A stretch of DNA of 64,000 nt from NCBI RefSeq assembly GCF_030651915.1, contig NZ_JAUSBV010000002.1, positions 324,414-388,413 of the forward strand, written 5' to 3'. The translations under genes were made by a program, and so were the position numbers. The stretch comes from Parvibaculum sp. Its GTDB lineage: Bacteria > Pseudomonadota > Alphaproteobacteria > Parvibaculales > Parvibaculaceae. The notes beneath the pieces are model-generated. The model saw only the letters and a program-made list of their open reading frames with translations, ran no database searches and was not told the origin of the DNA. Positions 15,069 to 61,758 of this stretch are shown in pieces. Within the stretch, counting starts at the first letter, position 1. Every line of letters starts with the position of its first letter.

Positions 15069-15788
15069 TTGCCCAACAGCAACATCATCGAACTCGACGA
15101 CGTCCGCCTGACCCTGCCCAGCGCCGCCGGCCCGGTCAACATCCTGCGCGGCATCGATCTCACCATTGCGCGCGGCGAGGCGGCGGGTCTTGTCGGGCCG
15201 TCCGGCTCGGGCAAGTCGACGCTGCTGATGGTGCTGGCCGGTCTCGAGCGGCCGAGTTCCGGCCGCATCCATGCGGCGGGCGAGGATCTGACAGCGCTTG
15301 GCGAGGACGGGCTGGCGCGCTTCCGCCGCGACCGCGTCGGCATCGTCTTCCAGTCCTTTCACCTGATCCCGACCATGACGGCGCTTGAAAATGTCGCGAT
15401 CCCGCTTGAATTCGCCGGCCGCGCCGATGCCTTCGAACGCGCCGAGGAAGAATTGCGTCTGGTCGGGCTCGGCCACCGGCTGACCCATTATCCGGGGCAA
15501 TTGTCGGGCGGCGAGCAGCAGCGTGTGGCGCTGGCGCGCGCGGTTGCGGGCGACCCCGAAATCCTGTTGGCCGACGAGCCGACCGGCAATCTCGATCAGG
15601 CGACCGGCGCCGAAATCATCGCGCTGATGTTCGACCTGCATGCGCGCAAGGGCACGACGCTGATCCTGATCACCCATGACGAGGCGCTGGCGGCACGTTG
15701 CGACCGCGTCATCCGCCTGCGCGACGGTCTGGTCGAGAGCATCGAGGCGGGCGTGGCGGCGCCGCTTGCCGGCGGGGCGCACGCGTGA
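15069..15788 (+). CDS. ybbA: ABC transporter ATP-binding protein, YbbA/LolD type
   Basis: The 239-residue ATPase has Walker A GPSGSGKST, Q-loop FQSFHLIP, signature LSGGEQQRVALARAVA and Walker B ILLADEPTGNLD, in the LolD/MacB-like subfamily. It pairs with the large permease that overlaps its stop. The start is uncertain: the ABC domain begins just after the TTG at 15069, giving the usual length, while a GTG at 14988 would leave only 3 bases to the divergent tesA start. The ybbA-ybbP pair next to tesA is a recurring arrangement. Confidence 0.9.
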   Translation: MPNSNIIELDDVRLTLPSAAGPVNILRGIDLTIARGEAAGLVGPSGSGKSTLLMVLAGLERPSSGRIHAAGEDLTALGEDGLARFRRDRVGIVFQSFHLIPTMTALENVAIPLEFAGRADAFERAEEELRLVGLGHRLTHYPGQLSGGEQQRVALARAVAGDPEILLADEPTGNLDQATGAEIIALMFDLHARKGTTLILITHDEALAARCDRVIRLRDGLVESIEAGVAAPLAGGAHA

Positions 15789-18355
15789 ACGGTTCGGCCT
15801 CCTTCACCCTTGCCGCCCGTCTGGCGCGGCGCGAGTTGCGCGGCGGCCTCAAGGGCTTTCGCGTCTTCATTGCCTGTCTGGCGCTCGGCGTCGCGGCGAT
15901 TGCCGGCGTCGGTTCGGTGTCGTCGGCGCTGACGCGCGGCCTTGCCGAAGGCGGTCAGGAAATTCTCGGCGGCGATGTTGCCATTCGTCTGATCCACCGC
16001 GCGGCGACGGGTGAGGAACTTGCCTTCATTTCGGCCGGCAATGCGGTTTCGGAGATGGCCGAAATGCGCGCCATGGCGCGCAACCTTGAGGTCACGAATG
16101 GCGATGCGGCCGCGCGTGCGCAAACGCTGGTCGAGCTGAAGGCCGTCGACAATGTCTATCCGCTTTACGGGGCAATGGAACTCGCGCCCGACATGGAGCT
16201 GGCCGACGCGCTGGCCTTTCGCGACGGTCATTGGGGCCTTGTCGTCGAACCCAATCTGTTGACGCGGCTCGACGTCGCGGTCGGCGATCTCGTCCGCATT
16301 GGCGAGGCCGAGCTTCGCTTGCGCGCCGCGATCACGCGCGAGCCCGACCGGGTCTCCGACGGTTTCGCGCTCGGGCCGCGCGCCATGATCGCCATGGAAG
16401 CGCTTGAGACGACGGCGCTGGTGCAGCCCGGCAGTCTCGTCAGCTATCACTACCGGGTGCGATTGCCCGAGGCGCAGCGGTCGGGTGCCGGCATCGCCGC
16501 CTGGGTCGCCACGCTCAATGAACGCTTTCCGGATGCCGGCTGGCGGGTGCAGGATCGCGGCGACAGCGCGCCGGGCGTGCGCCGTTTCGTCGAGCGGGTG
16601 GCGCTGTTTCTGTCGCTGGTCGGCCTGACCGCGCTTGTCGTCGGCGGGGTCGGCGTTGCCAATGCGGTCAAATCCTATCTCGACGGCAAGCGCACCGTCA
16701 TCGCCACCTTCAAATGTCTCGGCGCGCCCGGCGCGTTGATCTTCCGGCTCTATCTGATGCAGGTGATGGCGCTCGCCGCCATCGGCATTGTCATCGGTCT
16801 TGTCATCGGCGGCGCCACGCCTTTCATCGTCGAGGCGGTGGCGGGCGATCTGATCCCCATTCCGGCCGATCTCGGTCTCTACGGCGCGCCGCTCGTGCTC
16901 GCTGCCGCCTATGGCGTGCTGACCGCGCTTGCTTTCGCGATCTGGCCGCTGGCGCGCGCGCGGGAGGTTCCTGCAACGAGCCTCTTCCGTGATCTCGTGG
17001 CGCCGGTGCGGCGTTTCCCGCGCCCGGTCTATGTCGCGGCGACGGCGGGCGCGCTTCTGGCGCTGGCAGGCATGGCGATCGCGCTGGCCGAGGAACGGCT
17101 GTTCGCGCTTTATTTCGTCGGCGGCGCGGCCGGCGTCTTCATTATCCTCTTTGGCGCCGCGCGCGGCATCATGGCGCTGGCGGCGCGCGCGCCCCGCGTC
17201 CGTTCGCCGGGCCTGCGTCTGGCACTGGCCAATATCCACCGGCCGGGCGCGCCGACACCGGCGATCGTGCTTTCGCTCGGGCTCGGGCTGACGCTGCTCG
17301 TCACCGTGTCGCTGATCAACGGCAACCTCACCGGCGAAATCATGGGCGAGATGCCCGACCGGGCGCCCGCCTTCTTCTTCGTCGATGTGCAACCCGATCA
17401 GATCGACGGGCTGGAGGAGATCGTCACCGCCAGCCCCGGCGTCACCTCCTTCAATCGCGTGCCGATGCTCCGGGGACGGATCGCCGCGGTCAATGGCGTG
17501 CCGTCCGACCAGTTGACGGTCGCCCCCGATGTGCAATGGGCGCTGCGCGGCGATCGCGGCATCACCTATGCGGCGGCGATGCCGTCCGGTTCGACGCTGG
17601 TGCGCGGCGCCTGGTGGCCGGAGGATTATGCCGGACCGCCGCTCGTTTCCTTCGGCGAGGATCTCGCCCGGGGCTTCGGCGTCGATGTCGGCGACACCAT
17701 CACCGTCAATGTGCTCGGCCGCGAAATGGCGGCGACCATCGCCAATACGCGCGAGATCGACTGGTCGACGCTCGGCATCAATTTCGTGCTGGTGTTCTCG
17801 CCGGGGGCCCTGTCGGCGGCGCCGCATACGGTGCTGGCCACCGTCAGCATGGATGGCGGCAACGAAGCGGAGGAGGCGCTGGAGCGCGAGGTCACCGCGC
17901 GCTTCCCCAACATCACCTCGGTGCGGGTCAAGGAAGCGCTGCTGGCCGTCAACAAGCTGCTTGAGGATTTCGCCATGGCGGTGCGCGCCACCGGCGCCGT
18001 CACGCTGGCCGCCGGCATTCTCGTGCTTTCGGGCGCGATGGCGGCCGGCTTCTCGGCGCGGGTACGCGATGCGGTCGTCCTGAAAGTGCTCGGGGCGACG
18101 ACGGGGCGCATTCTCGGCATCTATGTCCGCGAATATGCGCTGCTGGGTTTCGCGACCGCGCTGGTCGCGGCGCTGGCCGGCACGCTGGCGGCCTTCGCCG
18201 TCATCACCTTCCTGATGGGCATGCCCTGGCGCTTCCTGCCCGGCACGCTCGCCGTCACGGTTGCCGGCGCGGCGCTGCTGACCGTCGCGCTCGGTCTTGC
18301 CGGCACCTGGCGGGCGCTGGCCGCGCCGGCGGCGCCGGTGCTGCGGGCCGACTGA
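15785..18355 (+). CDS. ybbP: ABC transporter permease, YbbP type (FtsX-like)
   Basis: The 856-residue permease begins with a GTG that overlaps the stop of the ATPase (GTGA). It has the duplicated FtsX/MacB-like architecture of YbbP: a first membrane helix at about 27-47, a large periplasmic domain, three helices around 270-400, a second cluster at 410-470, a second periplasmic domain and three helices in the last 130 residues. Such Type VII exporters use ATP in the cytoplasm to drive periplasmic movement. Pairing with tesA suggests a role in lipid or hydrophobic-substrate handling at the envelope, which is inference. Confidence 0.9.
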   Translation: MNGSASFTLAARLARRELRGGLKGFRVFIACLALGVAAIAGVGSVSSALTRGLAEGGQEILGGDVAIRLIHRAATGEELAFISAGNAVSEMAEMRAMARNLEVTNGDAAARAQTLVELKAVDNVYPLYGAMELAPDMELADALAFRDGHWGLVVEPNLLTRLDVAVGDLVRIGEAELRLRAAITREPDRVSDGFALGPRAMIAMEALETTALVQPGSLVSYHYRVRLPEAQRSGAGIAAWVATLNERFPDAGWRVQDRGDSAPGVRRFVERVALFLSLVGLTALVVGGVGVANAVKSYLDGKRTVIATFKCLGAPGALIFRLYLMQVMALAAIGIVIGLVIGGATPFIVEAVAGDLIPIPADLGLYGAPLVLAAAYGVLTALAFAIWPLARAREVPATSLFRDLVAPVRRFPRPVYVAATAGALLALAGMAIALAEERLFALYFVGGAAGVFIILFGAARGIMALAARAPRVRSPGLRLALANIHRPGAPTPAIVLSLGLGLTLLVTVSLINGNLTGEIMGEMPDRAPAFFFVDVQPDQIDGLEEIVTASPGVTSFNRVPMLRGRIAAVNGVPSDQLTVAPDVQWALRGDRGITYAAAMPSGSTLVRGAWWPEDYAGPPLVSFGEDLARGFGVDVGDTITVNVLGREMAATIANTREIDWSTLGINFVLVFSPGALSAAPHTVLATVSMDGGNEAEEALEREVTARFPNITSVRVKEALLAVNKLLEDFAMAVRATGAVTLAAGILVLSGAMAAGFSARVRDAVVLKVLGATTGRILGIYVREYALLGFATALVAALAGTLAAFAVITFLMGMPWRFLPGTLAVTVAGAALLTVALGLAGTWRALAAPAAPVLRAD

Positions 18356-18381: not shown

Positions 18382-18486
18382 GGGGACAAGTATTTTTTCA
18401 GCGCTGCGCTGCCGGCGCGACGCGTCGCCGGGGACAAGTTGCGGGATAAGTTGCGGGATAAGCCGGGCCTGCGGGCGGGGATAAAG
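18382..18486 (-). repeat. Array of five ACTTATCCCCG-like motifs (cassette A)
   Basis: On the minus strand this intergenic stretch carries five copies of a 9-base motif CTT(A/G)TCCCC or a close variant. On the plus strand they are GGGGACAAG at 18382 and 18430, GGGATAAG at 18443 and 18455, and GGGGATAAAG at 18477. Spacing is irregular (about 12, 13, 22 and 48 bases). The motif matches 7 of 9 positions of the DnaA box TTATCCACA. The same motif forms an array at 61174-61291, each time next to three PHO-box-like repeats. Confidence 0.75.
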
Positions 18487-18502
18487 TGCCGCTCCGGCCT
18501 TT

Positions 18503-18532
18503 TGTGACAGTTTTTTGACAGTTTTGTGACAG
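18503..18532 (-). promoter_or_regulatory. Three 11-bp direct repeats matching the PHO box (cassette A)
   Basis: TGTGACAG, TTTGACAG and TGTGACAG start at 18503, 18514 and 18525, exactly 11 bases apart, with T-rich spacers. Read on the minus strand they give CTGTCA(C/A)A repeated with A-rich spacers, which is the pattern of the PhoB-binding PHO box (CTGTCA plus four A/T, repeated every 11 bases). The orientation would activate leftward transcription, toward the ybbP 3' end where no minus-strand gene is seen. Confidence 0.7.
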
Positions 18533-18686
18533 AGGGGGGGTCCGCTGCCACCGTCGCTGCCTGCCGAATGCCGGCTAAGTCTTGGAAAGCGTTACTCAAT
18601 CTTCACGATAAGCCCCCGGTTTTGCTTGAATTTCCGCGCTCCTCAGCCAATATTGACAACAGGCACACGCAGGAGGGTGCAGATAC
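18533..18686 (+). other. Leader region of the Bax-inhibitor-1 gene
   Basis: These 154 bases precede the gene at 18687 and contain its Shine-Dalgarno sequence (GGAGGG at 18672-18677). No open frame is credible. The ybhL leader RNA motif is known in front of this gene family in alphaproteobacteria and would be sought here, but I cannot recognise its consensus with confidence. Confidence 0.4.
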
Positions 18687-19445
18687 ATGGCGAATTACGA
18701 TCAGGAACGGCTCCATCAGGTAGAGCTCGGTCGCCGCGCCGACATGGCGATCGACCAGGGCCTTCGGAGCTATATGCTCAGTGTTTACAACTACATGGCG
18801 GGCGCGCTGGCCCTCACCGGCCTCGTCGCGCTGTTCGCCTATAACGCCGCCGTCGTCGAAACGCCGGCCGGTCTGGCCTTCAGCGAGTTCGGTCAGGCGA
18901 TCTATGCGAGCCCGCTGAAGTGGGTGGTCATGCTGGCGCCGCTCGGCTTCATTTTCTTCCTGAGCTTCCGCATCCAGAAGATGAGCCTCGTCGCGGCGCA
19001 GAGCACCTTCTGGCTCTTTGCCGGCGTCATGGGCCTGTCGCTGTCGTCGATCTTCCTCGTCTATACGGGTGAGAGCATCACCACGACCTTCTTCGTGACG
19101 GCGGCCGCCTTCGGCTCGCTAAGCCTTTACGGCTACACGACAAAGCGTGACCTGACCGGCATGGGCTCGTTCCTGTTCATGGGCCTGATCGGCGTCATCA
19201 TCGCGATGGTCGTCAATATTTTCCTGCAGAGCTCGGCGCTGCAATTCGCGGTCTCGGTGATCGGCGTCCTCGTCTTCGCCGGCCTCACCGCCTATGACAC
19301 GCAGCGCATCAAGGGCATGTATTACGAAGGCGACAGCGTTGCCGCCGCCGGCAAGAAAGCCGTGATGGGCGCGCTCTCGCTCTATCTCGACTTCATCAAC
19401 ATGTTCATGTTCCTGCTGCAGTTCCTCGGCAGCCAGCGCAGCTAA
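18687..19445 (+). CDS. Bax inhibitor-1 / YccA family membrane protein
   Basis: The 252-residue protein has seven likely membrane helices after a short polar N-terminus containing RADMAIDQGLRSYMLSVYNY, and the family signature GLTAYDTQRIKGMY followed by LYLDFINMFMFLLQFLG at the C-terminus. Bacterial members are inner-membrane proteins related to YbhL/YccA; some conduct calcium in a pH-dependent way and YccA modulates the FtsH protease. A strong ribosome site precedes the ATG and a terminator follows, so it is a single-gene transcript. Confidence 0.93.
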   Translation: MANYDQERLHQVELGRRADMAIDQGLRSYMLSVYNYMAGALALTGLVALFAYNAAVVETPAGLAFSEFGQAIYASPLKWVVMLAPLGFIFFLSFRIQKMSLVAAQSTFWLFAGVMGLSLSSIFLVYTGESITTTFFVTAAAFGSLSLYGYTTKRDLTGMGSFLFMGLIGVIIAMVVNIFLQSSALQFAVSVIGVLVFAGLTAYDTQRIKGMYYEGDSVAAAGKKAVMGALSLYLDFINMFMFLLQFLGSQRS

Positions 19446-42883: not shown

Positions 42884-43031
42884 GTCCGGCAAGCCCCTAG
42901 GTTCCGGCAACGATTTTCGGGACATTGTTGCGCCCCGACCCGCCCGAGGCATCGCGCCCGGGTCAACTTCCGCCGGCGATATTCGCTCGCGGGAGCGATC
43001 TTGCTTTGTACGACAAGGATTTGACGCCCAC

Positions 43032-60645: not shown

Positions 60646-60942
60646 TTACCCTTCCTTCACCATGACTTCACGGATCGAGATTTCCGGCGGCACCACGGCG
60701 AGGCGCCGCGCCGCTTCCATGAATTCATGGCAGTAGTCTTGCGCGAAATGGAAATCGACGGCGGCGCGGTCCCGCCATTCCTCATAGAAGAAAAAGCGGC
60801 CGGGGCACATCTGGTCTTCGTAATAGCTGTAGGCGAGATTGCCGGGCTCGGCGCGCGACAGCGTCACCTGGCGTTCGGCGACGGGCTTGAAAGCCGCGCG
60901 GTTTTCGTCGGCGATTATCGCCGCACCGGTAATGACGATCAT
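60646..60942 (-). CDS. Putative quinol monooxygenase (ABM domain)
   Basis: The 98-residue protein is of the YgiN/ABM type: a dimeric ferredoxin-like fold with the order strand IVITGAAIIADEN, helix, AEPGNLAYSYYEDQ and FFFYEEWRDRAAVDFHFA. These small proteins oxidise quinols or similar compounds without cofactors. The gene is 357 bases from the PHO-box-like repeats at 61299-61328, which point toward it. Confidence 0.85.
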   Translation of the reverse strand: MIVITGAAIIADENRAAFKPVAERQVTLSRAEPGNLAYSYYEDQMCPGRFFFYEEWRDRAAVDFHFAQDYCHEFMEAARRLAVVPPEISIREVMVKEG

Positions 60943-61173: not shown

Positions 61174-61291
61174 CTTATCCCCGGGGGGCGGGGATAAGTC
61201 CGAATCGGCCGCGCCGGTGCCGGCAAGGGGCGAAGGCGGGGATAAATGCCTGTCGGGCCCGGGGATAAGTGGCCGTTGCGGCCGGGGATAA
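61174..61291 (-). repeat. Array of five ACTTATCCCCG-like motifs (cassette B)
   Basis: On the minus strand CTTATCCCC or a one-base variant occurs at 61190-61198, 61238-61246, 61261-61269 and 61284-61291, and once inverted at 61174-61182, so that the last two face each other as a palindrome (CTTATCCCC-GGGGGGC-GGGATAAG). The motif and its position beside PHO-box-like repeats are the same as in cassette A (18382-18532). Confidence 0.75.
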
Positions 61292-61298
61292 CTCGGCA

Positions 61299-61328
61299 TG
61301 TGACAGTTTTATGACAGTTTTGTGACAG
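61299..61328 (-). promoter_or_regulatory. Three 11-bp direct repeats matching the PHO box (cassette B)
   Basis: TGTGACAG, TATGACAG and TGTGACAG start at 61299, 61310 and 61321, exactly 11 bases apart with T-rich spacers. On the minus strand this reads CTGTCACAAAACTGTCATAA and onward, close to the classical PhoB box. Only a few bases differ from 18503-18532, and the flank AGAGGGGG is shared. The orientation favours leftward transcription toward 60942. Confidence 0.75.
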
Positions 61329-61359
61329 AGGGGGTGTTTTCGCTGTTGCGCGCTGCCTC

Positions 61360-61395: not shown

Positions 61396-61758
61396 ATGAA
61401 AATGGAAACAGCCCTCTCGGCGCTCGCCGCCCTTGCTCAGGAGACCCGCCTCTCGATCTTTCGCGCCCTTGTGCGCGCCCATGCGCCGCGCGCCGGCGAG
61501 GGCGGGCTGGCGGCGGGCGAGATCGCCGAGGCGCTTTCGGTGCCGCCGGCGACCTTGTCCTTTCATCTCAAGGAGTTGGCCCATGCCGGTCTGGTCGTCT
61601 CGCGGCGCGAGGGCCGCTCGATCGTCTATGCGGCCAATCTCGAGGCGATGCTGGGGCTGGCCGGTTTCCTGCTCGACGATTGTTGCCAGGGCGCCTGCGG
61701 GACCTTGTCCCCCTGCGCCGTGGCGGCCACGAAATCAACTCGAAAGGAGCGCGTGTGA
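61396..61758 (+). CDS. arsR: ArsR family arsenic-responsive repressor
   Basis: The 120-residue winged-helix protein has the ArsR pattern: ALAQETRLSIFRALV, recognition region LSVPPATLSFHLKEL and wing VSRREGRSIVYAAN. The usual metal site in the recognition helix (CVC) is absent. Instead cysteines cluster at the C-terminus: C96, C97, C101 and C107, the arrangement seen in ArsR types that bind As(III) with C-terminal cysteines. It would repress itself and arsI. ATG codons at 61396 and 61402 are both possible. Its stop overlaps arsI (TGATG). Confidence 0.88.
   Translation: MKMETALSALAALAQETRLSIFRALVRAHAPRAGEGGLAAGEIAEALSVPPATLSFHLKELAHAGLVVSRREGRSIVYAANLEAMLGLAGFLLDDCCQGACGTLSPCAVAATKSTRKERV

Follow-up and report, generated by a model that had tools for sequence, protein, structure and literature searches.

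The stretch of DNA analysed here (the window) comprises 64,000 nucleotides of a 3.50-Mb Parvibaculum genome in 11 contigs (G000 in what follows; C7:324414-388413). It holds two cassettes, A and B, in which three 11-bp direct repeats (CTGTCA on the minus strand, TGACAG on the plus strand) are joined to an array of a second short motif. Both cassettes belong to a set of composite chromosomal sites of Parvibaculum that are kept at the same places across species. In cassette A, the triplet, a predicted PHO box (18505..18532, minus strand; TGACAG starts at 18505, 18516 and 18527), is directly preceded, in the minus-strand reading, by a CCCCCC(C)T tract, AGAGGGGGGG (18531..18540, minus strand), which is a feature of the G000 lineage. 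It is followed by an array of five TTRTCCC(C/G) motifs (18382..18485, minus strand), by our reading putatively DnaA-type: GGGGACAAG at 18382 and 18430, GGGATAAG at 18443 and 18455, and GGGGATAAA at 18477. Arithmetic from these coordinates places them 20, 43, 55, 67, and 115 bp past the end of the triplet.

Cassette B is built in the same way. Its predicted PHO-box triplet (61301..61328, minus strand; TGACAG starts at 61301, 61312 and 61323) has a CCCCCT tract, AGAGGGGG, on its upstream side (61327..61334, minus strand), and its array (61174..61291, minus strand) holds four minus-strand TTATCCCC motifs, present as GGGGATAA at 61190, 61238, 61261, and 61284, plus one motif in the opposite orientation (CTTATCCCC at 61174-61182). 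The four minus-strand motifs lie, by the same arithmetic, 9, 32, 55, and 103 bp past the triplet end. This two-part build, described in an earlier note on the window, was present as given when the letters were re-read and the motifs counted window-wide: GGGGATAA occurs six times (0.69 expected) and TGACAG-N5-TGACAG, with at most one mismatch, four times (0.12 expected), while none of 100 shuffles reached as many in either case. The note was also right that the surrounding genes are unrelated: cassette A is flanked by genes for an FtsX-type permease (15785..18355, plus strand) and a Bax1-I family membrane protein (18687..19445, plus strand), and cassette B by genes for an ABM-domain protein (60646..60942, minus strand) and an ArsR-type helix-turn-helix regulator (61396..61758, plus strand).

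The two cassettes represent two of the 73 places in G000 at which TGACAG-N5-TGACAG-N5-TGACAG is found exactly, as anticipated by the suggestion that they form a defined unit rather than a product of chance. Five further places carry one mismatch and six carry two, a few of all these matches being overlapping registers of one site. The reversed pattern, used as a control, yielded a single exact match; with two mismatches allowed, this control (80 matches) is not independent of the real pattern. The array motif, searched as GGGGAYAAG, was found 135 times (31 for the reversed pattern), and 77 of the 100 places listed sit at most 300 bp from a triplet. In the CTGTCA direction, 72 copies of G000 suggest the consensus CCCCCCT-CTGTCACAAAA-CTGTCAWAAAA-CTGTCACAAA, with GACAGC-type motifs often upstream and CTTATCCCCG motifs downstream. 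Sixty-eight of these 72 copies (L008, L026, L046, and L062 were left out) entered the counts of context and phasing given below; CCCCCTCTGT is present in 65 of them, and TTATCCCC, on either strand, in 54 of the 68 surrounding segments. The triplet core is near-invariant in the 68 copies of G000, 43 of G014 and 37 of G001, partly by construction, as the core was used to find the copies.

Several additional motifs accompany these elements. The GACAGC-type motifs lie 17-41 bp upstream of the G000 triplets, upstream of the CCCCCC tract and in steps of about 11 bp; they are fewer in G001, and none is near in G014. A palindrome like TCCGTGTACGGA recurs by the elements L001, L021, and L023 of G000 and L247 of G014, with eight strict matches in the counted range around the 68 copies of G000, and a GGTATCYGGATACC palindrome stands directly upstream of some elements of G001 and G014 (L033 and L037, respectively). 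Moreover, L062 (G000:C8:796697) and L285 (G001) hold a CTGTCA box of four repeats, flanked upstream by CTTGTCCCCG; this box is kept at a gene boundary in both species and is perhaps a PHO box of another type.

The strict triplet pattern is present in 7 of 27 genomes of the genus and in none of 34 other genomes; among 387 genomes of the class, it was found in two genus members and, as one copy, in one other genome (G126). It is missing in most members of the genus because the consensus differs by species: a relaxed pattern matches 16 of the 27 genomes, and a 41-position sequence model, R1, matches 20. This model was aligned from 33 of the 65 listed copies of G000, 42 of 43 of G014, and 35 of 37 of G001, so that it undercounts relatives, and it scored 150 first-look candidates per genome, its counts being hits that may be low. 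R1 gives 82 matches in G000 and 80, 79, 77, 73, 67, 66, 55, 52, 45, 40, 38, 37, 25, and 11 in fourteen others (the last being G010); that is, 25-82 matches in 14 of the 27 genomes, together with one match each in G002, G003, G007, G012, and G021 and none in seven. The best-populated genomes hold about 60-80 sites, approximately one per 45-62 kb. The array motif CTTRTCCCCG is counted 64-114 times in the 14 genomes with at least 25 R1 matches and 5-46 times in the other 13. The whole-genome scan and the comparison with relatives that the earlier note had called for have revealed both further copies and conservation, and it is practically certain that these elements constitute a conserved dispersed family of composite sites.

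Conservation of place was assessed through the flanking genes, which were called by a codon-usage gene finder trained on era genes and compared by blastp. Sites were considered partners when these genes lay on the same side and the same strand at a similar distance, and only part of the sites of each species was fetched. A partner among the 68 sites of G000 was found for 34 of 37 sites of G001 and for 30 of 43 of G014, and 17 of the 37 G001 sites have one among those of G014. Cassette A is partnered by L236, and cassette B by L237 and L279; in the pair L060/L225, the genes are in common and the element is inverted. Copies within mutY (L056, L227, and L289) and within a gene of the citrate synthase family (L052, L230, and L290), both identified by Pfam on the G000 proteins, are kept in three species. 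Between partners, identity reaches 94-100% in the half-sites, in part because the sites were found by their half-sites, 51-62% in the spacers, and 29-42% in the flanks. Each species shows its own consensus at the shared places, as at rnc-era, where G000 has CCCCCCCT CTGTCACAAAA... and G009 has GGCCGA CTGTCATCGAA ATGTCAT... The rnc-era copy of G013 (G013:C288:17641-17691) holds five tandem 11-bp repeats, versus three in G000. In G000, elements are read through in the coding genes mutY (L056), citrate synthase family (L052), and a MobA-like gene (L012), adding similar short peptides such as LSQNCHKTV.

The sites are also evenly spaced. The G000 set consisted of the 73 places with zero or one mismatch, without L008, L046, L062, overlapping registers, and two-mismatch matches; had L008 been kept, there would be one additional, very short gap. 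Its 64 gaps average 45.6 kb with a coefficient of variation (CV) of 0.56, versus 0.93 +/- 0.10 in random sets, none of 5000 being as even, and gaps below 15 kb number 4, where 17.8 are expected. The shortest gap, of 5.1 kb, separates the PHO box of the pst operon from a neighbouring copy. For G001 and G014, in which R1 matches of at least 24.5 bits were merged within 500 bp, 63 sites each were obtained, with a mean gap of 57 kb and a CV of 0.62 in G001 (random 0.98; one of 5000 sets as even), and 62 kb and 0.63 in G014 (none of 5000). With the origin placed by parS, TGACAG lies on the leading strand in 44 of the 63 sites of G001 (P 0.002) and in 38 of the 63 of G014 (P 0.13), and a function as replication-strand marker was rejected because the bias is significant in G001 only.

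Several lines of evidence connect the triplet with the phosphate regulator PhoB. PHO boxes consist of 11-bp direct repeats, best kept in Escherichia coli as CTGTCAT (PMC4415409, in excerpt). At least two tandem 11-bp repeats with a CTGTCAT-type core identify such a box, and the triplet has three. The PhoB model TIGR02154 scores above its cut-off in all five genomes examined, a phoR-pstSCAB-phoU-phoB locus (named from translations) is present in G000, G014, G001, and G012, and in these four genomes 11-bp CTGTCA-type repeats precede pstS; in the stretch of G006 inspected, no pstSCAB was seen, just a poor repeat match. R1, which was not trained on the pstS promoter, scores 35.6 bits on it in G001 and a weak 23.1 bits in G014. 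In G012 and G002, the sole R1 match (E 4.6e-7 and 1.2e-6, respectively) precedes a permease gene like that of the PHO4-family permease beside L051 of G000, and the sole match of G021 (6.2e-4) has the same flanks. Weak sole matches occur in G007 (E 0.002) and G003 (E 0.04), the latter with a metallophosphoesterase and a glycosyltransferase as neighbours. The DNA-binding domain of PhoB aligns without gaps to that of E. coli PhoB (1gxp), including the RTVDVH segment, which presumably contacts DNA. According to the motif, its likeness to the pstS promoter of the genus, and the single outgroup matches at phosphate genes, the triplet is very probably a PHO box, in line with the PhoB-type reading of the earlier note.

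The second motif is organized with respect to the triplet. The downstream side of the triplet holds all 80 of the 80 forward TTATCCCC motifs counted in G000, 26 of the 33 in G014, and 28 of the 29 in G001 (range from 600 bp upstream to 700 bp downstream); for reverse TTATCCCC, the corresponding figures are 36 of 41, 19 of 27, and 18 of 25, respectively. With a wider motif, the distances from the triplet end cluster in G000 at 9, 20, 31-32, 43, 54-55, and 65 bp. The best period of the forward motifs is 11.3 bp in G000, 11.1 bp in G014, and 11.2 bp in G001, with phasing values R of 0.82 (n=94), 0.73 (n=32), and 0.82 (n=47), which none of 1000 random sets reach. Phasing also holds for the reverse motifs of G000 (n=36) and G001 (n=22). 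This helical phasing points to DNA binding rather than to RNA. The possibility that TTRTCCCC provides extra PHO half-sites in register was rejected, as its lattice (9 + 11k bp) runs about 4 bp off that of the triplet (5 + 11k bp).

A comparison for this motif is offered by the stretch flanked by hemE and an RP001-like gene, which we take to be a Caulobacter-type origin; in G000, its distance from parS is about 15 kb. Among 21 aligned loci, 18 were usable (G001, G012, and G024, on the wrong strand, were not counted). The first homologous box has a CCCC core in 12 of the 18 and a CCAC core in 6 (TTATCCACA in G025), while the second is TGATCCCC in 16, TAATCCCC in G007, and TGATCCACA in G018. In Caulobacter, TGATCCACA is the high-affinity DnaA box and TCCCCA is the weak W-box (PMC4285127, in excerpt). 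TTRTCCCC does not match the DnaA box consensus TTWTNCACA. Nevertheless, canonical boxes take its place at homologous positions of oriC in some genomes, and it is this alternation of CCCC and CCAC cores, together with the Caulobacter box data in the portion of PMC4285127 available, that leads to its reading as DnaA-type. On balance, the array would be a cluster of DnaA boxes, and the "DnaA-like protein sites" listed as an alternative in the earlier note are the best reading of it, DnaA binding being a prediction from the comparison of origin boxes.

The gene context of the copies is varied. Five of the 68 copies in G000 lie inside a called gene, and the 63 intergenic ones are distributed between convergent (24), tandem (16 + 14), and divergent genes (9); a co-directional gene is next downstream in 25 of these 63, at -2 to 634 bp. 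One to five array motifs (TTRTCCCC) are present in 58 of the 68 copies. Of the ten array-less copies, five stand at most 100 bp before a co-directional gene, compared to two of the 58 that have an array (Fisher P 0.0004); there may have been too little space for an array, or these copies may be a group of genuine promoters. A TANNNT sequence at any one offset of 5-29 after the triplet was found in at most one of 68 copies in G000, one of 43 in G014, and two of 37 in G001. Likewise, downstream T-runs were not commoner than A-runs (28 versus 32 in G000, 16 versus 23 in G014, and 24 versus 23 in G001). A promoter-type PHO box, with a -10 element at fixed distance and a downstream gene, does not describe the whole set, although a few copies may be promoters. 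The proposal that PhoB-type sites drive transcription through the array is not supported, no -10 element being seen at a fixed distance after the triplets. Against the phosphate-controlled small RNA proposed with it stand that same lack, the absence of T-run excess, array motifs in both orientations, the convergent genes around 24 of 63 intergenic copies, and the copies inside coding genes. The only match of the whole window at the Rfam gathering threshold, RF01793 (ffh small RNA family; 42952-43003, plus strand, 40.4 bits), is unrelated to the cassettes.

The even spacing, the fixed places, and the little regard for gene context point to a function at the level of the entire chromosome. It is conceivable, and tentatively preferred here, that the sites serve a chromosome-scale mechanism of PhoB and DnaA and are mostly not promoters of the adjoining genes. 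PhoB would bind the three-repeat PHO box and DnaA the array. Under phosphate shortage, phosphorylated PhoB would be loaded onto the sites and, sitting on a common helix face, could help DnaA to hold weak boxes, both proteins forming one complex. DnaA held in this manner would lower the free DnaA and restrain initiation, making the sites a phosphate-gated DnaA sink; alternatively, they might be anchor points of the nucleoid, a role that would fit the sequence data equally well. The full version of this proposal is rather doubtful: that PhoB and DnaA assemble together on the same face of the helix at regularly spaced loci throughout the chromosome, with phosphate status directly setting the DnaA held back or the folding, and that within each lineage the whole set shifts its consensus jointly without changing position. 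Titration models treat DnaA boxes as evenly spread (PMC9640692, in excerpt). In Caulobacter, phosphate starvation blocks initiation via limited DnaA, by inhibited translation according to the available part of PMC10723716, which represents a like need served by another route than the one proposed here.

A number of observations weigh against this chromosome-scale reading. The spacing null was uniform over the chromosome rather than restricted to intergenic DNA, the three genomes share many sites, so that their spacing tests are not independent, and G014 looked random (CV 0.92) on an incomplete list of 43 sites, its 63-site list being even. The leading-strand bias attains significance in one genome only. 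A PhoB paralogue could be the protein that binds, as the PhoB model matches 30-43 proteins in each genome, receiver-only ones included. On the side of the array, ten of the 68 copies in G000 lack any array motif in the 220 bp downstream, reverse motifs are unphased in G014 (n=15; 245 of 1000 random sets as good), TTRTCCCC ending in G has two mismatches to the nine-position DnaA consensus, and the matching W-box of Caulobacter binds DnaA very weakly (PMC4285127, in the part cited above).

Among the other explanations, the one that survives best, unlikely as it is, holds that the triplets are decoys which soak up PhoB, a paralogue, or another winged helix-turn-helix regulator and so set the level at which the Pho response begins; the array would then be bound by another protein or consist of weak PhoB half-sites. 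The PHO-box identity of the triplets and the many OmpR-type regulators in the genome would suit it, and for the non-promoter PhoB sites of E. coli, decoy titration is still counted among the possible functions (PMC10294691, in excerpt). However, a decoy could act from any place and at any spacing, and half-sites are at odds with an array lattice about 4 bp out of triplet register. An old mobile or dispersed repeat, comparable to repetitive extragenic palindromes (REP) or miniature inverted-repeat transposable elements (MITE), which would have multiplied when the clade arose and would since have been in decay, is quite improbable. The copies are indeed mostly intergenic and often right after stop codons (in 13 of 40 cases, the CCCCCC tract is 0-10 bp away from the 3' end of the upstream gene), presence follows part of the genus, and the one copy in three outgroups and the 11 in G010 would be consistent with an expansion from a single PHO box. 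Nevertheless, instead of elements alike over their length and randomly placed, we find even spacing, no full-length similarity beyond the motifs, poorly conserved flanks between partners, and a triplet near-invariant within species with spacers that differ between species at the same places.

An unusually large but ordinary Pho regulon, in which the copies are promoters of adjoining genes, is very unlikely. True PHO promoters (pstS and the PHO4 permease) do carry the same motif, and seven of the 68 copies lie at most 100 bp before a co-directional gene, five of the seven without array; yet only 25 of the 63 intergenic copies have such a gene downstream at all, no -10 element stands at a fixed distance, and copies are kept inside coding genes. 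As for the lead hypothesis of the earlier note, a phosphate-controlled small RNA with repeated UUAUCCCC loops, it was rejected on simple counts of -10 and T-run motifs and on Rfam, and motifs in both orientations, copies inside genes, and a helical phasing that points to DNA binding leave it scarcely credible.

Noc, SlmA, and MatP also have tens of binding sites per chromosome and a chromosome-scale role. Their sites are single palindromes, in contrast to the direct-repeat composites of Parvibaculum. The chromosomal DnaA titration boxes (datA, DARS, and scattered boxes) resemble the arrays as clusters of DnaA-type boxes away from oriC, but the latter have the variant core TTRTCCCC, an attached PHO box, and regular spacing. 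PhoB operators of E. coli and rhizobia share the tandem 11-bp CTGTCA(T/C) repeats, as before pstS here, whereas the Parvibaculum sites occur in tens, evenly spaced, mostly off promoters, and joined to a second phased motif. DnaA boxes of E. coli are enriched near oriC (PMC12371093, in excerpt). The Caulobacter W- and G-boxes are alike in the TCCCCA core, and the origins of Parvibaculum have TGATCCCC where one relative has TGATCCACA; unlike the Parvibaculum arrays, W-boxes are described inside the origin in the excerpt of PMC4285127. The non-promoter PhoB sites of E. coli also lack a promoter activity signal and are in some cases inside genes; in the part of PMC10294691 available, the non-promoter and intragenic sites are regarded as inert, not conserved, and likely noise, while those of Parvibaculum are kept in place across species. 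No account of such sites was found in one open-access library, subscription journals lying mostly outside the search, and within the literature so covered the parts are of known kinds and the regular phased composite is new.

Transcription-factor sites off promoters are often taken as noise. Those of Parvibaculum combine strength, even spacing, helical phasing with a second motif, and fixed places across species, which makes a chromosome-scale role directly testable. They also represent tens of fixed-place sites whose consensus, as a set, varies from one species to another. The sites hint at a link between phosphate supply and whole-chromosome control, and should DnaA bind the array, one stretch of DNA would serve both nutrient signalling and initiator titration.
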